A stretch of 64,000 nt of DNA from Adhaeribacter swui (GTDB lineage: Bacteria > Bacteroidota > Bacteroidia > Cytophagales > Hymenobacteraceae): positions 4,594,585 to 4,658,584 of the forward strand of contig NZ_CP055156.1 of the NCBI RefSeq assembly GCF_014217805.1. The letters are read 5' to 3'. The translations under genes and the position numbers were made by a program. Positions 6,815 through 27,097 of this stretch are shown here, in pieces; the first letter of the stretch is position 1, and each line of letters starts with the position of its first letter. The notes below the pieces were generated by a model. The model was given only the letters and a program-made list of their open reading frames with translations. It did no database searches and was not told the origin of the DNA.

Positions 6815-8959
6815 CTAAATAATCGGATGTTGTAACAACACGATGGCACGTGAATCAACATGAACCAAGTCTTCGTCTTTATATACGTCGGTAGGTTCAT
6901 CTACCTGATTTAAGCTGGTGTCCAGAATTTTGGTCCATTTATCGCCGTATTTTTTAATCGGTAACTTAAAGTCCAGGGGAATATCGGAGGCGTTAAAAAT
7001 AATGTAGAACGAATCGTCGAAAACGTGTTCGCCTTTAGGCCCTTTGGAGTGCAAACCAACCCCGCTAAAGTAAACGGCTAATGATTTAGCAAAATCCTGG
7101 TTCCAATGATCTTCGTTCATTTCAGAACCATCGGGTAAAAACCAGGCAATATCTTCCACGCCTATACCTTTAATAGGCTGGCCCTGGAACCAACGGCGCC
7201 GCCGGAAAATCGGGTGGTTTTTGCGCAGGTGAATCAGCTTGCGGGTAAAGTTGAGTAATTCCACGTCGGCTTTGTCCCAGTTGAGCCACGAAATTTCGTT
7301 ATCCTGGCAATACGCGTTGTTGTTCCCGTTTTGCGTACGGCTAATTTCATCGCCGGCTACCAGCATGGGTACCCCTTGCGATAAAAACAAAGTTGTTAAA
7401 AAGTTGCGTTTTTGCCGGTTGCGGAGCGTGTTTACCCACTCATCATCCGTTGGTCCTTCCACGCCGCAATTCCAGGAACGGTTATGATCTTCGCCGTCGT
7501 TGTTGTTTTCGCCGTTGGCCATGTTGTGTTTCTCGTTATAAGAAACCAGGTCGTTCAGGGTAAAACCGTCGTGGGCCGTAATAAAGTTAATGCTGGCGGT
7601 AGGCCGGCGGTAATCGTCGAGGTATAAATCGGAGCTGCCGGTTAAACGGTTGGCAAATTCGGGCAACATGGCTTTTTCGCCGCGCCAGAAATCGCGCATG
7701 CAGTCGCGGTACTTGCCGTTCCACTCGGTCCAGCCCGGCGGGAATTTACCTACCTGGTAGCCGCCTTCGCCAATATCCCAGGGTTCGGCAATTAATTTCA
7801 CTTGGGAAATAACTGGGTCCTGGTGAATAATATCAAAGAAAGAACCCAGGCGGTCTACGTCGTGCAGCTCCCGGGCCAACGCCGAAGCCAAATCAAACCG
7901 GAAACCATCTACGTGCATTTCGGTAATCCAATACCGCAGACTGTCCATAATTAAACGGAGCACACTGGGTAGCATGGCGTTTAAGGTATTACCCGTGCCG
8001 GTATAATCCATGTAATACCGTTTATCTTCCTGGATTAAACGGTAATACGCCGCATTGTCTATCCCCCGGAACGATAAAGTTGGCCCTAAGTGGTTGCCTT
8101 CGGCGGTATGGTTGTAAACCACATCCAGAATAACCTCGATGCCGGCTTTGTGGAACTCCTTCACCATATTTTTAAATTCGGAGACCTGCTCGCCCAAGGT
8201 GCCGCTGCTGGAGTAGCGCACATCCGGTGCAAAAAAGCCGATGGTATTGTAGCCCCAGTAGTTCGATAAGCCTTTGTCCTGTAAAATACTGTCGTTCACG
8301 AAATGGTGAACCGGCATTAACTCAATGGCCGTAATGCCTAGGGATGTTAGATATTGAATGGTTACCGGGTGCACCAGCGCTGCGTACGTACCCCGGATTT
8401 CTTCGGGAATGGCCGGGTGCATCATGGTAAAACCCTTTACGTGGGTTTCGTAGATAATCGATTTATGGTACGGAGTACGCGGAGGCGCATCGCCGTCCCA
8501 GTTAAAAGCCGGATCAATTACTACCGACTTGGGAATATAGGCGGCGTTGTCCTGATCGTTAAAACTTAAATCGCGGTTTTCCTGATCTTCGGCGTGTAAA
8601 TCGTAACCAAACATGGCGTCGTGCCACTGAATGGTACCCGAAATGGCTTTGGCGTACGGATCAATCAAAACTTTATTCGGATTAAAACGGTGGCCATTCA
8701 TCGGGTCGAAAGGACCGTGTACCCGGTAACCATACAACTGGCCCGGTTTAGCCCAGGGCAGATACGCGTGCCACACCTGGTGGGTGCGTTCGGCAATTAA
8801 AATAATTAAACTTTCCGACGGATCGGTATCGTTATCGAATAAGCATAGTTCCACGCCGGTGGCGTTTTCGGCGTACAGGGCAAAATTAACCCCTTCCCCG
8901 TCCCAGGTAGCACCTAAAGGATACGGTTTTCCGGGATACACAACAGGATTTTTAATCAT
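6815..8959 (-). CDS. glgX: glycogen debranching enzyme GlgX (TreX type)
   Basis: The 714-residue protein is an isoamylase-type GH13 enzyme that cuts alpha-1,6 branches of glycogen or limit dextrin. An N-terminal CBM48-like domain (PYPLGATWDGEGVNFALYA) leads into the barrel. Catalytic motifs are DVVYNHTAEGN, nucleophile D356 in FRFDLASAL, acid/base E392 in IAEPWDIG, and TAHDGFTLNDL. It heads the trehalose block: linear chains it releases feed TreY then TreZ, as in TreX-TreY-TreZ gene clusters. No glycogen synthase or branching enzyme lies in the window. The 130-bp gap to treZ contains three copies of ATGGACTA or its complement, with no clear function. Confidence 0.95.
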   Translation of the reverse strand: MIKNPVVYPGKPYPLGATWDGEGVNFALYAENATGVELCLFDNDTDPSESLIILIAERTHQVWHAYLPWAKPGQLYGYRVHGPFDPMNGHRFNPNKVLIDPYAKAISGTIQWHDAMFGYDLHAEDQENRDLSFNDQDNAAYIPKSVVIDPAFNWDGDAPPRTPYHKSIIYETHVKGFTMMHPAIPEEIRGTYAALVHPVTIQYLTSLGITAIELMPVHHFVNDSILQDKGLSNYWGYNTIGFFAPDVRYSSSGTLGEQVSEFKNMVKEFHKAGIEVILDVVYNHTAEGNHLGPTLSFRGIDNAAYYRLIQEDKRYYMDYTGTGNTLNAMLPSVLRLIMDSLRYWITEMHVDGFRFDLASALARELHDVDRLGSFFDIIHQDPVISQVKLIAEPWDIGEGGYQVGKFPPGWTEWNGKYRDCMRDFWRGEKAMLPEFANRLTGSSDLYLDDYRRPTASINFITAHDGFTLNDLVSYNEKHNMANGENNNDGEDHNRSWNCGVEGPTDDEWVNTLRNRQKRNFLTTLFLSQGVPMLVAGDEISRTQNGNNNAYCQDNEISWLNWDKADVELLNFTRKLIHLRKNHPIFRRRRWFQGQPIKGIGVEDIAWFLPDGSEMNEDHWNQDFAKSLAVYFSGVGLHSKGPKGEHVFDDSFYIIFNASDIPLDFKLPIKKYGDKWTKILDTSLNQVDEPTDVYKDEDLVHVDSRAIVLLQHPII

Positions 8960-9550
8960 AAATGGTTAGTACAAATAAGTATATCGGCTTTGGTTTAGAT
9001 GAACAAATTAGACCTTGGAAAGCGTGTACGTATAAAATTGTAAAATGGTCAAACTGTCCGGTAACCGGCGTATCTCTATAAAGTTTTAGCACTTCAGGAT
9101 CAAGAGAATACACCCAAAACTTACTAAAAAATAGTATTGGCGTTAAAATACGTCTTGTACGTAAAATATAATCCGGCAACGGCAAAGCTTAGCGAAAGCG
9201 GTGAAATTCCGTATTTAATGAGCCGTTTTCAGGAACATTGCGTATTTATACGGCTTTAACTTTATACCTTACAACAGGTAGGAGCTAGCTTGATTAAGGC
9301 TTTTCATTTAAATTTTAAAAAATGAGCGGGCTGCAAACCGGAGCACAAGCGTCTTAACCAATCATTGATTCTTAATAAACAAAAACTGCGGCTAACTTAA
9401 AATATTTAAAAATTAAGAGTAAACCAGCGCGGTACTGGGTAAAATGACTTAGCAAAACTTTTAACCCATCTTGGAAGTAAAGAAAGCAGTACCCATTTTT
9501 TGGAAAACAAACAAAAGAAACAAGGCAGAATAGTTTAATTGAGCGCATGC
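8960..9550. other. 590-bp gap between divergent glgX and NDH-2 genes
   Basis: This should hold the promoters of both divergent genes. A minus-strand open frame overlapping the glgX start (8952-9185) has no recognisable features and is not called. I see no repeat or clean promoter match. Confidence 0.4.
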
Positions 9551-10900
9551 ATGGCTACCATTATAGATAATTCAAGAAATGCCAAAATAGCCGAAACGGG
9601 GCAACCGCGGGTAGTAATTGTGGGCGGCGGCTTTGCCGGCCTGGAATTGGTAAAAGCTTTACGCGGCACCGAACTGCAGGTAATCTTAATTGATAAGCAA
9701 AATTTTCATACGTTTCAGCCTTTGTTGTACCAGGTGGGCACCGCCGCCGTAGAAGCCGATTCCATTATTTACCCTTTCCGGAAAATTTTTGATGAGCAGC
9801 AGAATTTTTATTTCCGGCTGGCCGAAGTGCAATCCGTAGATACGGTAAACCAAATGGTAGAAACGTCGATTGGTTTGCTGCGCTATGATTATTTGGTAAT
9901 TGCCACCGGAGCTACCACTAATTTTTACGGCGACGAAGTAATTCAGAAAAACGCCATTTCCATTAAAAACATTCAGGATGCTTTGGCGCTGCGCAACACT
10001 ATTTTGAGCAATTTTGAAAAAGCACTGCAAATAGACGACGACGAGCAACTAAACAGTTTAATGGACTACGTAATCGTGGGGGGCGGACCTACTGGCGTAG
10101 AACTCGCTGGTGCATTGAGTGAGTTGCGCAAACACGTTTTCCCGAGGGATTACAAAGAGTTGGATTTTATAAAAATGGACATTCATTTGATTCAAAGCGG
10201 CGATTTGTTGCTCAAAGGCATGTCGGCGGAAGCTTCTCAGAAAGCCCGGGAATACCTGGAAAGCTTCGGCGTAAAAATTTTGTTTAACCGCAAGGTAAAA
10301 GCATACGATGGCTATACCGTAACCCTGGACAATGGCGATACCTTAATTACCCGAACTTTAATCTGGGCAGCCGGTGTAACTGGCGCGCCCATAGCCGGAC
10401 TGCGCAAAGAAAGTTTACTGCGCGGCAACCGCCTGCAAACCGACGAATACAACCGTATAACCGGTTACCAGAACATTTTTGCCATTGGCGATATTGCCGC
10501 GATAGTTACCCCGGATCACCCTGAAGGTCATCCCATGCTGGCGCAACCCGCCATGCAGCAAGGCAAATTGCTCGGCGAAAATTTAAAAAGGCTAATAAAA
10601 AACCAGCCTTTGCACCCCTTTCATTACCACGATAAAGGTGCCATGGCCACCATTGGCCGCAACCAGGCCGTAGCGGATTTAAAAATTTTTAAAAAAGAAA
10701 TTAAAACCCAAGGGTTTGTTGCCTGGTTTATCTGGGCTTTTATTCACCTGATTTCCATTATTGGTTTCCGGAACCGCTTGTTTGTGCTGGTTAACTGGAT
10801 TGGCAGTTATTTTACTTACGACAAAGGCATCCGCCTGATTCTGGGAAAACCCAAAGAAAACATTCCGGTAGAAGCGGTAACAGAAAAGGCGGTTGGTTAA
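9551..10900 (+). CDS. type II NADH:quinone oxidoreductase (NDH-2)
   Basis: The 449-residue flavoprotein oxidises NADH and passes electrons to quinone without pumping protons. An FAD-binding Rossmann motif (VVIVGGGFAGLEL) near the N-terminus is followed by an NAD-binding motif (YVIVGGGPTGVELAGAL) and the FAD motif FAIGDIA. The C-terminus has hydrophobic helices (GFVAWFIWAFIHLISIIGF) that would anchor it to the inner membrane face. The frame is open from a TTG at 9539, but the ATG at 9551 is the better start. It is the only respiratory gene in the window and appears monocistronic. Confidence 0.9.
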   Translation: MATIIDNSRNAKIAETGQPRVVIVGGGFAGLELVKALRGTELQVILIDKQNFHTFQPLLYQVGTAAVEADSIIYPFRKIFDEQQNFYFRLAEVQSVDTVNQMVETSIGLLRYDYLVIATGATTNFYGDEVIQKNAISIKNIQDALALRNTILSNFEKALQIDDDEQLNSLMDYVIVGGGPTGVELAGALSELRKHVFPRDYKELDFIKMDIHLIQSGDLLLKGMSAEASQKAREYLESFGVKILFNRKVKAYDGYTVTLDNGDTLITRTLIWAAGVTGAPIAGLRKESLLRGNRLQTDEYNRITGYQNIFAIGDIAAIVTPDHPEGHPMLAQPAMQQGKLLGENLKRLIKNQPLHPFHYHDKGAMATIGRNQAVADLKIFKKEIKTQGFVAWFIWAFIHLISIIGFRNRLFVLVNWIGSYFTYDKGIRLILGKPKENIPVEAVTEKAVG

Positions 10901-24044: not shown

Positions 24045-24051
24045 GTTGTGC
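24045..24051 (-). repeat. attC-like outer core at the end of the cassette array
   Basis: On the minus strand GCACAAC (24051-24045) lies 31 bases after the stop of the gene at 24082-24399. It is nearly complementary (5 of 6) to TTGTGT, the first six bases of that gene's cassette (24429-24424). This is what the first core (R'') of its attC should look like. The rest of the site is degraded, and no GTTRRRY partner is clear. Confidence 0.4.
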
Positions 24052-24081
24052 AACAATTACTGCTGTTATATGCTGCTGCTT

Positions 24082-24399
24082 TTATTTTAACTCGTATTCC
24101 CGATCTAAGTTAAGTATATAATGCCCTCTGATATTCTTAGCTAATAGGTCAATTACGATTACTATAAAAGTATTTTGGTTTTCGGTTGGCAACAATACAT
24201 GGTCGTAGGTATTCTCACAACTTCGGTACACTTTTTCCACAAGTTCTTGGTCGTATACTATCATTTGAACTACTCCATAATTCTTTAAACACTCAACGTA
24301 GGGCCAGATTTCAGTTACAGGTTCTGCAGTTATGGTCACATCATGCATCGATATCCCAAAGGTCGATTGGAATTCTTCTGGTGATAATTCTGTAGTCAT
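24082..24399 (-). CDS. hypothetical protein, gene-cassette 5
   Basis: The 105-residue protein is not recognised. It starts MTTELSPEEFQSTFGISMHD at the ATG 24399, with TTTGTCCGGAGC upstream on the plus strand (GCTCCGGACAAA read on the minus strand). The frame is open further upstream, but that would run through the attC-like hairpin, so the ATG is preferred. Acidic, no signal peptide or membrane segment; it has a hydrophobic core segment (FIVIVIDLLAKNI). It occupies a unit bounded by attC-like sites at 24424-24482 and 24045-24051. Confidence 0.6.
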   Translation of the reverse strand: MTTELSPEEFQSTFGISMHDVTITAEPVTEIWPYVECLKNYGVVQMIVYDQELVEKVYRSCENTYDHVLLPTENQNTFIVIVIDLLAKNIRGHYILNLDREYELK

Positions 24400-24423
24400 T
24401 TGTCCGGAGCTTCTTGCTATTAC

Positions 24424-24482
24424 ACACAATGGGCAGTAGCTATAAGGTGGCGTAGATACCTTATAGCCACTGCCCATTGTAC
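24424..24482 (-). repeat. attC-like site between cassettes 4 and 5
   Basis: Read on the minus strand it begins GTACAAT (24482-24476) and ends ATTGTGT (24430-24424). Two 23-nt arms (24458-24480 and 24426-24448) pair with a single mismatch that becomes a G-U pair in the minus-strand RNA; the loop is 9 nt. Seven T residues follow at 24486-24492 on the plus strand, so a terminator reading for plus-strand transcription is possible, but no plus gene precedes it. Confidence 0.7.
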
Positions 24483-24495
24483 AATCTTTTTTTGT

Positions 24496-24930
24496 TTAAG
24501 TAGTTTGCAAACTGAAACTAATTTTCCAGTTAATACCAAATTTATCCACGCAGATTCCATAATAAGAACCCCAAAATTGCTCAGAAATAGGAAGTTTTAT
24601 TTCTCCTTCTTTTGAGAACGAATCAAACAACCTATCAGCTTCTTCTTTACTTTCAGTATTAATATAAAGCGAGAAGTATCTAGCTGCACTATTTTCTTGT
24701 CGTTTGACATCAATAATGTCGGCTCCCATTATAATTGTTTCATTACTAATAGGTAGTCCTATATGCATAATATGTTCATCTTTGCAATGCGGGAAATTCT
24801 GTCTTGCATCTGCAGGCACATCTTTATAACGTCCAATAAATTTGAATTCTTTCTTAAAAACAGATTTATAAAAGTTAAAGGCTTTTTCACAATTCCCATT
24901 AAAATATAAATAGGTGTTAACTGTTGCCAT
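24496..24930 (-). CDS. PhnB-like VOC protein, gene-cassette 4
   Basis: The 144-residue protein is a PhnB-type (DUF1338-unrelated) VOC domain: VNTYLYFNGNCEKAFNFYKS at the start, HIMHIGLPISNETIIMGAD in the middle, SLYINTESKEEADRLFDS, and a closing WGSYYGICVDKFGINW. These proteins are often called 3-demethylubiquinone methyltransferase-like, but no methyltransferase chemistry is shown. AT-richer than the core genes on either side of the array. It ends 14 bases before the attC-like hairpin at 24424-24482. Confidence 0.8.
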   Translation of the reverse strand: MATVNTYLYFNGNCEKAFNFYKSVFKKEFKFIGRYKDVPADARQNFPHCKDEHIMHIGLPISNETIIMGADIIDVKRQENSAARYFSLYINTESKEEADRLFDSFSKEGEIKLPISEQFWGSYYGICVDKFGINWKISFSLQTT

Positions 24931-24960
24931 ATATATTGTTCTTAAATCTACTATTTTATA

Positions 24961-25035
24961 TTTAGTGAGTCCGCTTTATCTGATGGCACATTAAGGATTT
25001 GCGATGGCGTTGCTACCGTAAAGGTGTTATTGTAC
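24961..25035 (-). repeat. attC-like site between cassettes 3 and 4 (partly decayed)
   Basis: On the minus strand it starts GTACAAT (25035-25029), complementary to TTGTAC at the start of cassette 3. CACCTTTA pairs with TAAAGCGG, and GGTAGC with GCCATC, giving an imperfect stem. No GTTRRRY core is visible at its far end, so the boundary with cassette 4 is approximate. Confidence 0.55.
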
Positions 25036-25045
25036 AAAGTTGTTC

Positions 25046-26071
25046 TTATGCCTTTTCTAATCTATTAAGATAACCTAATGACTTAATTCTGCTTTGTATT
25101 TCTTTATCTACTTTTACTTTTGAAGTATAAAAACCGAATGTGTTCAGTGATTTCGGTAGGCACTTATTGATTAAGTTGTCAAAGTCAAGATTAGTTTTAT
25201 AAATCCATAGCTTTCTGAGGCTTTCTGTTTTGTCTAACCCATCCAAAAGTGAAAAAGACTTACAATTTAAAATAGCTAGTTCTTCTAGATGTTGAAGAGG
25301 CTTTTCAAATACTAGTTCATTTAATTGAATTAGGTCCTCTATTTGGAGCTTCTTTAGCTTTCTGAAGGATGCAATGTTATTTATCTCAGTAAAGCCTCTT
25401 ACTCTTATAATTTCAAGTTCTTCCATGTCGTTTTCTTCTATTTCATTTATATTGCTTCTGCCTCCTAATATTAACTTAAGTATCTTCAACTTTTTTAATT
25501 TATTTACAAAGCCGATAGGTGCTTTACTTATGGAGTTAAGTGACAGTTCCTCCAAATTGCTAAGTTCTCCAAGTGCTTCAATGTTTTTGGTGTGACCGCA
25601 GCAAATTAAGTAATTAAGTTTTTGGTAATCTTCTAGATACTTTAGTTTTAGAGCTTTACTCCTTGTGTCAAAAAGCAATAGCTTTTGTAATGACTTCAAG
25701 TTGTCTGAATTTAGAAGTTCAGATTCTCTCAGCTCATAGAAGCCTATGCTCAGTGTATGAAGATGCTTAAGTTTAGTTAGGGAAGACAGGTTCTCCACAT
25801 GATAAAGGCAATCCATGTACAGAGACTTTACCTCAGGAAGCTTTTCAAGAATTTTGCAGTCAAAGCGTCCTTTATCTTCATAGTGCCCATAGAATCTAAC
25901 CTCTAGTAATTCATTATTCTTTGCACACAGCATATTAAGATCAGCGAGAATCTTATCATCATAGACTTTTTCTGAAAATTGGATGACAACAGTTTTACCT
26001 TCACTCAAATCTGACTCAATTGAGTGAGTGTCTAAAAAGGCAGGGTTATTTATTCGATCAAAGAGTATCAT
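25046..26071 (-). CDS. leucine-rich repeat protein, gene-cassette 3
   Basis: The 341-residue protein is built of irregular leucine-rich repeats: LPEVKSLYMDCLYHVENLSS, LTKLKHLHTLSIGFYELRE, LSNLEELSLNSISK, LKKLKILKLILGG, FRKLKKLQIEDLIQLNEL, LQHLEELAILNCKSF. No signal peptide, so cytoplasmic. LRR proteins of this sort mediate protein binding; partner unknown. The ATG at 26071 is only 15 bases inside the cassette start, a spacing typical of integron cassette genes. The codons are strongly AT-rich compared with flanking core genes. It is long for a cassette gene. Confidence 0.8.
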   Translation of the reverse strand: MILFDRINNPAFLDTHSIESDLSEGKTVVIQFSEKVYDDKILADLNMLCAKNNELLEVRFYGHYEDKGRFDCKILEKLPEVKSLYMDCLYHVENLSSLTKLKHLHTLSIGFYELRESELLNSDNLKSLQKLLLFDTRSKALKLKYLEDYQKLNYLICCGHTKNIEALGELSNLEELSLNSISKAPIGFVNKLKKLKILKLILGGRSNINEIEENDMEELEIIRVRGFTEINNIASFRKLKKLQIEDLIQLNELVFEKPLQHLEELAILNCKSFSLLDGLDKTESLRKLWIYKTNLDFDNLINKCLPKSLNTFGFYTSKVKVDKEIQSRIKSLGYLNRLEKA

Positions 26072-26079
26072 TCAATTTT

Positions 26080-26145
26080 GTACAACGGGCCACGTATATG
26101 CAAAACCCAAAGTGAAACAAGGATTTTGTATATACATTATTAGGC
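26080..26145 (-). repeat. attC-like site between cassettes 2 and 3
   Basis: On the minus strand it runs from GCCTAAT (26145-26139) to GTTGTAC (26086-26080). The arms GTATATACAAAATCC and GGGTTTTGCATATAC pair over 15 bases with two G-U or mismatched positions, around a 12-nt loop. The first core is complementary to TTAGGC at the start of cassette 2; the last core supplies TTGTAC to cassette 3. Confidence 0.75.
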
Positions 26146-26157
26146 AATGATTTTTCT

Positions 26158-26586
26158 TTACTCCAATGAATTACTTCCTTCAGATAATTTCCAATTATAT
26201 TTACTTAAGGCACCGCCCCTATGATTTTTAGGGTCGTAATGGAAGTAGGTTAATTTATTCTTTTTAATTAAGTATGTATGAGTAATTTCACCAGCTTCAT
26301 TAGATAACCAAGTTAGCATTAATGTATCTTTCCTTATCTGCCATTTCCCTTTTTTAACCTCTGTTCTTACTAATTTTGTTGATTTAAGGCTTTTCTGCCT
26401 ATAGTGAATAGTTTGCTCAAAAGTAGAGTCAGCTTTACAAACTTCAATTATGTCTTTAATCTGATTGAATCCTAAAGCTTTCTTTACATGAGATGTACGA
26501 TTAAATTTTGAACATCCTAAATCATTAGGAAGCAGGTTAAACAAGAAAGTAATTACAAATAACAATTTAATCTGTTTCTTTTTAAT
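26158..26586 (-). CDS. hypothetical exported protein, gene-cassette 2; non-canonical start
   Basis: The recognisable reading frame has no ATG near its start. A TTG at 26565 gives 135 residues, but the in-frame codons just upstream encode IIKKKQIK before LLFVITFLFNLL, making a good signal peptide (basic start, then hydrophobic core). I therefore place the start at ATT 26586 (or ATA 26589), a few bases after the cassette start; a TAG at 26593-26595 closes the frame. The mature part (KKGKWQIRKDTLMLTWLSNE, KNKLTYFHYDPKNHRGG) is unrecognised. Possible lipoprotein via NDLGC, but weak. Confidence 0.55.
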   Translation of the reverse strand: MKKKQIKLLFVITFLFNLLPNDLGCSKFNRTSHVKKALGFNQIKDIIEVCKADSTFEQTIHYRQKSLKSTKLVRTEVKKGKWQIRKDTLMLTWLSNEAGEITHTYLIKKNKLTYFHYDPKNHRGGALSKYNWKLSEGSNSLE

Positions 26587-26590
26587 TATG

Positions 26591-26657
26591 GCCTAACGGT
26601 CTCGGACAGGCAACGGGTGAGGCGATAGCCGAACATGATGCCTGTGCTGTGTTACCT
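26591..26657 (-). repeat. attC-like site between cassettes 1 and 2
   Basis: On the minus strand the site starts AGGTAAC (26657-26651) and ends GTTAGGC (26597-26591), a perfect GTTRRRY core. ACAGGCA pairs with TGCCTGT inside. AGGTAA is complementary to TTACCT, the first bases of cassette 1 at 26996-26991. Confidence 0.8.
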
Positions 26658-26702
26658 GATTGAGTTTTACTTTTTTTCTACATTGATGAATTGAATATCA
26701 AC

Positions 26703-26903
26703 TCAGAAAAAGTATTCAGTCATTTCTTCTATAAATTCTTTATCAGTAATTGGTAAGCCTGACTTTGAACCTAATACCGAATCAATACCACATTTGGGGC
26801 AAACTGCTGTTTCTCCTCCATTATTTTCGTTAATCCATTCCACAATTTCAGTCGGTGAATAGATTCCTTGGCAATAGAAGCATACACATTGCTCACTCTC
26901 CAT
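26703..26903 (-). CDS. small zinc-ribbon protein, gene-cassette 1
   Basis: The 66-residue protein has two CxxC pairs, C8-F-Y-C11 and C35-P-K-C38, a compact zinc ribbon. It resembles a family of small cytoplasmic proteins of unknown function ending ITDKEFIEEMTEYFF (others read PITKEFL..MH.YWF, from memory). The ATG at 26903 is used; the longer frame would start at a TTG inside the attC-like site. Sits in the first complete cassette, 26597-26996. Confidence 0.7.
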   Translation of the reverse strand: MESEQCVCFYCQGIYSPTEIVEWINENNGGETAVCPKCGIDSVLGSKSGLPITDKEFIEEMTEYFF

Positions 26904-26990
26904 TATTTCTTTTTTATGTGAAGAGCTTTTGTCGTGAGCTGCAATAAGAAAATCCTTGGTATATTTCTTCAAATTTTTAATTCCTCTTAC

Positions 26991-27037
26991 AGGTAACAAG
27001 CAGGTAAACGGAGTAACTCCGTTTACCTGCGTTATAT
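26991..27037 (-). repeat. attC-like site at the upstream end of the cassette array
   Basis: On the minus strand ATATAAC (27037-27031) is followed by a perfect 14-bp stem, GCAGGTAAACGGAG / CTCCGTTTACCTGC, with a 3-nt loop, and then GTTACCT (26997-26991). It lies 60 bases from the alpha-galactosidase stop. TATAAC would belong to a lost upstream cassette starting TTATA. Confidence 0.7.
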
Positions 27038-27097
27038 TTTACTTTCTTATTCCATATATCCTGCCAAAATCAACCGATAACCGGAACAAACCACTAT

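Follow-up and report, generated by a model that had tools for sequence, protein, structure and literature searches.

In a 64,000-nt stretch of the Adhaeribacter swui genome (G000; hereafter the window), positions 24045–27037 on the minus strand hold a genuine but partly decayed integron cassette array. We assign a probability of about 0.82 to the reading that this is the decayed array of an integron system native to the Hymenobacteraceae, with dispersed attI-like leaders and, as its recombinase, Rec480, a tyrosine recombinase of ~480 amino acids without the patch of the integron integrase IntI. The most likely builder of the array is a patchless relative of IntI, not IntI itself. The array was recognised through R′/R′′ complementarity, matches to a covariance model of attC sites, and cassettes that are shared with other genomes.

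A partly decayed cassette array

The first three cassettes each open with a hexamer (R′) that is complementary at all six bases to the start of the spacer (R′′) at the end of the same cassette: TTACCT (26996) pairs with AGGTAA(C) at 26657, TTAGGC (26596) with GCCTAA(T) at 26145, and TTGTAC (26085) with GTACAA(T) at 25035. In random 12-base stretches of the window, complements of these hexamers occur with frequencies of 0.0045, 0.0016 and 0.0025 for cassettes 1, 2 and 3, respectively. Spacer 1 fully obeys the R′′/R′ rule (AAC, GTT), whereas in spacers 2 and 3, despite their 6/6 pairing, a T replaces the last C. An earlier note on this DNA, which had proposed the cassette array, gave the three complementarities exactly, and the 5/6 fit that it reported for the fifth cassette is likewise found (GCACAA at 24051).

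R2, the covariance model of attC, rests on 28 sites from outside the A. swui genome: G003 contributed nine, G002 two and G005 one, a further thirteen come from named Pontibacter/Rufibacter records, and G012, G017 and G022 supplied the other three. It replaced an earlier strict motif scan, which missed class 1 attC sites and found most of them once an extrahelical base was allowed. The R2 stem consists of seven pairs, each of which shows compensatory changes on both sides; covariation amounts to 0.852, compared with 0.209 in shuffled and at most 0.104 in slid versions. The conserved inner stem (L′′/L′) is paired in 95.4% of the cells (28–33% when slid), and unpaired columns lie inside the consensus stem. 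In the 64-kb window the two top R2 matches are spacers 1 and 2, which are 450 bp apart. These are the attC of cassette 1 (26591–26657, including the R′ of cassette 2; 56.8 bits, E = 1.2e-12) and that of cassette 2 (26080–26145; 31.6 bits, E = 4.8e-6). Sequences similar to the latter occur in six other genomes or places of the genus.

The remaining spacers are altered. Spacer 3 was not found by R2 in the window, yet 39 bp of it are 90% identical to three places in G003, one of which (L042) is an attC by the R′/R′′ rule. For this reason we regard it as a decayed attC (24985–25036). Spacer 4 forms a hairpin (24420–24483), apparently an altered attC with a long perfect stem, and yields only a partial R2 match (24466–24439; 14.4 bits, E = 0.16), barely better than a plus-strand match of 13.9 bits taken for chance. 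Cassette 5 ends in an attC remnant (GCACAAC, 24051–24045) that R2 does not match. The first half of the array is thus intact and the second half decayed.

The five minus-strand open reading frames (ORFs) expected from the earlier note are all present and encode 98, 135, 341, 144 and 131 amino acids; the third is not small. Cassette 1 (26597–26996) carries the 98-codon ORF (26703–26999), whose product is zinc-ribbon-like by eye, and cassette 2 (26086–26596) carries the 135-codon ORF (26158–26565). Cassette 3 (24992–26085, 3′ edge approximate) encodes the leucine-rich-repeat-like protein of 341 amino acids (25046–26071). The product of cassette 4 (24430–24991, edges approximate; ORF 24496–24930) is of the VOC/glyoxalase type and matches 3-dmu-9_3-mt/Glyoxalase in Pfam. 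For cassette 5 (24045–24429, including the attC remnant) the ORF is given as 24082–24477, with a start that probably lies later. ORFs 1, 2 and 5 matched no Pfam family above its cut-off, none of the five proteins matched a PADLOC defence model at E 0.01, and an Rfam scan of the window at the gathering threshold was negative. The G+C content of the array is low, at 0.336 compared with 0.428 for the window.

Two cassettes have relatives in other Adhaeribacter genomes. The counterpart of cassette 1 in G003 shares 80% identity, stands second in its array and has a diverged attC; the similarity begins exactly at G26997, the G of GTT. For cassette 4, a counterpart with 89% identity is found in G005, at an unrelated place, where it directly follows a leader; the junction of cassette 4 in the window is decayed. 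Breakpoints at GTT, as the earlier note predicted, are thus borne out by cassette 1.

The gene upstream of the array encodes an alpha-galactosidase. A leader, i.e. a conserved sequence at the head of the cassettes, follows this gene in G000, G003, G004 and G005, and the first cassettes behind it start with TTACCT, TTGGAT, TTGTAC and TTAGCT, respectively. Four species thus have four different first cassettes at one locus, which shows cassette turnover; the conserved gene order that would have spoken against the earlier note is not seen. R2 sites follow this leader also in G003, G004 and G005; a strict R′/R′′ walk succeeds in G004 (two cassettes) and fails in G003 and G005. No leader was found within 260 bases behind the alpha-galactosidase gene in G001, G002 and G006, and in G007 the contig ends soon after the gene. 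Behind hflX (assigned by eye), G005 has a leader with cassettes, and G003 a partial leader and cassettes with attC.

Leaders at the head of the cassettes

The earlier note did not mention the leader directly upstream of cassette 1. In the window (26997–27087, minus strand) it takes up about 95 bp after the stop codon of the alpha-galactosidase gene and ends where cassette 1 starts; the GTT end of its conserved palindromic core (26994–27036) coincides with the cassette junction. This sequence, family A, recurs across the genus and probably provides the site at which cassettes are joined. The core comprises ~43 bp, with TAGTT as its usual end.

R1, a model of this core, gave 33 matches at E 0.05 in the A. 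swui genome, many of which are both strands of one palindrome; 18 leader places are left once strand doubles are removed. Two of these (C1:45452 and C2:110185) lie on contigs of 141 kb and 117 kb, possibly plasmids. With strand doubles included, G000, G003, G004 and G005 have 12–19 matches each, the other four Adhaeribacter genomes 1–6, and 33 genomes of other genera 0–3 each. A pattern scan of wider genome contigs found no leader; the pattern was perhaps too strict, or the near relatives were outside the scan.

R2 detects at least 34 attC sites in 17 clusters in the A. swui genome (E 0.1; a lower bound, as 150 of 1823 candidates were scored), among them sites beyond the array, which the earlier note had suggested looking for. 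A leader lies on the same strand less than 6 kb upstream of 29 of the 34 sites and 12 of the 17 clusters, compared with 0.8% of random places. We examined 32 leader copies in six genomes, out of 71 matches, omitting opposite-strand palindrome doubles, L047 (the same place as L120), L041, L050 and L133:10085. The core ends in GTT in 29 copies and lacks it in three. Behind 21 of these 29 leaders the cassette shows its own R′/R′′ match, as opposed to 46 of 780 swapped pairs. Two of the eight failures, L034 and L037, have an insertion sequence in the attC, and R2 still detects attC sites at these places. Both are in G005 and carry the same insertion sequence with a 523-amino-acid transposase (L034 ~8790–10470, L037 ~8395–10070). 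Since it occupies the same point, beside the R′ box, of two different attC sites, this insertion sequence may target attC.

A second leader family of ~150 bp, family B, occurs at L036, L081, L128, L129, L130 and L131, where a short ORF ending ..PTPSIVQITGTTPFIR or similar (by eye) overlaps the attI-like core. We considered whether the leader is the 3′ end of a coding sequence and rejected this, as several copies have stops in frame, though family B retains the short ORF (by eye).

We infer that the leaders may act as working attI sites and promoters. It is unlikely, at odds of perhaps one in seven, that they are instead REP-like (repetitive extragenic palindromic) sequences or terminators without a role of their own, with cassettes landing via secondary sites. 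The core is indeed a palindrome found at many places, and in 21 of the 32 copies the 300 bp upstream include the end of a same-strand open frame of 70 or more codons (in three cases Rec480). However, cassettes start at the same leader GTT in nearly every GTT-bearing copy, one orthologous leader is followed by different cassettes, and a related site is located behind Rec480 in three genera.

Rec480 and the probable builder of the arrays

Rec480 has a leader-like site behind its 3′ end in Adhaeribacter, Pontibacter and Rufibacter. Within Adhaeribacter, the leader follows the Rec480 gene in G003 and G007 and Rec480 remnants in G002 and A. swui; G006 has an intact Rec480 with a variant site, and G001 a copy without an in-frame start near the usual place. 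The A. swui remnant consists of ~50 codons of the gene end with a frame break; behind it come a leader, which is degenerate, and a cassette whose attC is good. Because Rec480 is eroded to this extent, the A. swui arrays are probably static today. A conserved gene for a zinc-ribbon-like protein of ~128 amino acids (DUF2116, just below the cut-off) lies divergently upstream of Rec480 (L114:15733–16116, minus strand; likewise in L116 and L117). G003 also has a second, shorter recombinase of the Rec480 type near further attC-like spacers (L115, C1:6723292–6724098).

A scan of named genomes yielded 21 Rec480 relatives from Pontibacter, Rufibacter and Adhaeribacter; a further set of rows, A6, excludes L157 (which has a stop), L159 and L161. 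Behind all 21 there is, by eye, a stretch ending in AGTT, and the sequence that follows is mostly different. L151, L152 and L155 share a similar start after AGTT, and the contig of L143 ends at that point. The cassette junction is located 133–200 bases behind the end of the Rec480 match in the 20 measurable cases. The R′/R′′ test was passed by 16 of these 20 platforms, as compared with 20 of 338 swapped combinations, and two of the four failures have less than 160 bases of flank. R2 (E 0.01) detected 81 attC sites in 18 of the 19 loci scanned (L144 and L155 were left out), all of them downstream of Rec480 and on its strand. A promoter-like pattern spans the Rec480 stop codon in 17 of 21 cases versus 0.76% of random stretches, but it was picked after the sequences had been seen, and one match is misplaced. 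Recombinase, head site and attC array thus occur together at Rec480 loci of three genera, while A. swui has only the Rec480 remnant.

At the protein level, Rec480 comprises Phage_integrase and SAM-like domains. Its best NCBIfam model is NF040815 (archaeal XerA; 208 bits, cut-off 220), and two Rec480 proteins scored 201.4 and 199.6 bits against TIGR02249, short of the cut-off of 265. When aligned with IntI1, Rec480 lacks ~50 residues that make up the IntI-specific domain, the patch, and retains the catalytic residues R, K, HxxR, H and Y. In a tree of 57 rows and 280 columns, IntI forms one clade (100/99), and Rec480 forms a separate one with its Cytophagales relatives (99/98); long branches were flagged, and the branch uniting both clades against Xer is weak (78/27). 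In the alignment with IntI1, 10 of the 42 loci L180–L221 gave no ORF; CytRec_L182 and TR297_L066 were also left out of the tree.

Structure prediction places the N-terminal ~170 residues of Rec480 in two modules of similar order (on their own, predicted local distance difference test score pLDDT 84.9 and predicted template-modelling score pTM 0.51). For the first module, N-terminal domains of archaeal XPB occupy the top six VIA rows (Z 5.7–6.9, root-mean-square deviation 2.0–2.1 over 53–56 residues), although chance could give such Z values. One of these is from an XPB-Bax1-forked DNA complex, and the SMARCAL1 HARP domain reached Z 3.8. Foldseek gave nothing at E 0.001 for the N-terminal part, with HIV reverse transcriptase as best rows, and Pfam no XPB or HARP match for the modules. 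These predicted folds offer a hint that the N-terminal part might bind distorted DNA.

A canonical, patch-bearing IntI that has since been lost or broken could also have built the arrays, which would then be ordinary attC clusters, with Rec480 as a bystander. In favour of this scenario, an IntI above the TIGR02249 cut-off is present in G003 and G005, one each, at the same chromosomal place with the same neighbours, and PMC8138268 describes the patch as essential for integrons to function. However, both genes stand alone and are damaged: the one in G003 (L080:9409–10302, minus strand) carries a stop, and the one in G005 (L079:9672–10658, minus strand) has lost catalytic residues, with K for the first catalytic R, Y and L for two H, and the beta-strand K stretch missing. 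A search at E 0.1 of the ~60 kb surrounding either gene (119 kb in total) gave no attC, and in G005 the nearest leader copy is ~20 kb away from IntI. Furthermore, only two of 150 genomes of the family have IntI, whereas Rec480 directly precedes arrays in three genera. We therefore consider an IntI origin improbable, at hardly more than one chance in ten. The A. swui genome itself has no TIGR02249 match above the cut-off, and the nearest listed match is more than 200 kb away from the window. With the other integrase, Rec480, reduced to a remnant, the array is integrase-less as the earlier note stated. Across the GTDB phylum, an IntI match at E 1e-45 was obtained in 108 of 395 genomes, one marked 'same class' and 107 'same phylum'.

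attC sites (R2, E 1e-4) occur in 38 of 60 genomes of the family, with 7–73 sites each. None were found at this threshold in the other 22, of which 8 belong to genus g4 and 14 to g5; the 14 g5 genomes have no Rec480 match listed at E 1e-60, and g4 is not in that listing. Patchless relatives were detected in 119 of 291 genomes of the order, and the matches of 30 of these 119 were made into loci and inspected. R2 sites at E 0.1 are present in ten of the 30 loci, nine from the same family and one (L186, E 2e-4) from another. A palindrome with GTT behind the recombinase is visible by eye in several more (L180, L185, L191, L199 and L201) and absent from some others. In five Cytophagales loci (L183, L187, L188, L190 and L193) an ssb-like gene (by eye, MRGLNKVTLIGNLGKEPEVQ or similar) starts directly behind the patchless recombinase.

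Several observations weigh against Rec480 as the native recombinase, besides the described need for the patch. G005, which is rich in leaders and attC sites, has no Rec480-like match among its TIGR02249 hits. As A. swui has only the remnant, two of the four leader-rich genomes are without a working Rec480; the preferred model does not account for the case of G005, and loss of Rec480 there after the leaders had spread is a guess. In G004, Rec480 appears as two overlapping frames. R1 (E 1) picks up no more than 10 of the 21 sites linked to Rec480, 5 of the 17 attC clusters in A. swui have no detected leader, and some single R′/R′′ matches in the leader and platform tests look accidental by eye. 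Class 1 attC sites likewise escape R2: on 11 control loci that carry an integron, class 1 or other, or lie near one, it gave only two weak matches (E 4.8), and it is therefore no general attC finder. As to the array itself, the DNA fold z-scores of spacers 1, 2, 3 and the last one are unremarkable (−0.40, −0.84, +0.73 and −0.27). Only spacer 4 and the leader palindrome fold strongly (z −7.7 and −6.7, respectively). That spacers 1 and 2, by energy alone, fold no better than shuffled sequences is what speaks for unrelated genes separated by terminators with chance complementarities, i.e. no integron at all, a notion that self-consistency, covariation, model matches and shared cassettes render negligible.

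Proposed system and its relation to known integrons

On the preferred reading, Rec480, without the IntI patch, would insert circular cassettes at a palindromic, attI-like site with GTT at its end, and its substrate would be attC folded as a single strand. A complete platform would begin with the Rec480 gene and a promoter-like stretch that overlaps the stop codon of this gene, followed by the attI-like site with the junction 133–200 bp behind the gene, and by cassettes in the same direction. In four of the eight Adhaeribacter genomes the leader would also have reached about a dozen further places, in many cases immediately downstream of unrelated genes, where each copy may have received its own cassettes in trans. 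The window leader behind the alpha-galactosidase gene would be one such copy.

In a broader sense, we lean towards the view that there is a second integron lineage outside IntI, in which a XerA-like recombinase handles folded attC without a patch. What enables it to do so may be its two N-terminal modules, which would be of the XPB/HARP kind and recognise distorted or forked DNA. This lineage would be common in the Hymenobacteraceae, and in Adhaeribacter the attI site would be dispersed, with one enzyme serving a dozen or more arrays in trans. Since relatives with the same layout are found in other Cytophagales families, the lineage would be older than the family. If this is true, the patch is one solution for working on attC and not the sole one, the origin of integrons from Xer-like recombinases becomes directly testable, and the count of Bacteroidota integrons changes.

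In the literature on integrons in Pontibacter, Adhaeribacter, Hymenobacter, Cytophagales and Bacteroidota, we found no account of a patchless system; preprints and most subscription papers were not covered. Bacteroidota are listed among the phyla with integrons (PMC8618304, PMC9668308), and the IntegronFinder 2.0 report names one complete Bacteroidetes integron, in Salinibacter ruber (PMC9024848). At least one intI survey retained no sequences other than those that have the additional domain, or patch (PMC2426708), and IntegronFinder labels attC clusters without IntI 'CALIN' (PMC9024848). Patchless arrays would consequently be filed as orphans.

The system shares with classical integrons (IntI, attI and attC, e.g. 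class 1 on R100) the single direction of the cassettes, attC sites with R′′/R′ boxes (AAC, GTT) and a paired inner stem, the G/TT junction, and a site-specific platform with a head site. It differs in that Rec480 lacks the IntI patch and falls outside the IntI clade, that the head site is located behind the 3′ end of the recombinase gene with the array in the same direction as Rec480, that its attC model misses class 1 attC sites, and that the head site is dispersed in the genome. The intI gene is usually divergent from its cassettes, and integrons with a turned integrase are known. In archaea, attI lies downstream of intI (PMC9668308).

The window array resembles a CALIN, an attC cluster without an integrase (PMC9024848), in having at least two close attC sites and no IntI nearby, or indeed any integrase in the window. 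To that extent the label CALIN-like used in the earlier note is apt. Unlike a CALIN, however, the array has an attI-like leader, one of ~18 leader places in the genome, and because of this head it is more than a bare CALIN. Rec480, in turn, has the simple core-binding and catalytic domains of the 'integron-like' simple tyrosine recombinases, a subgroup for which the accessible part of PMC8138268 links no patchless member to attC arrays, and of archaeal XerA (NF040815). It is set apart from both by an extra N-terminal part of ~170 residues.

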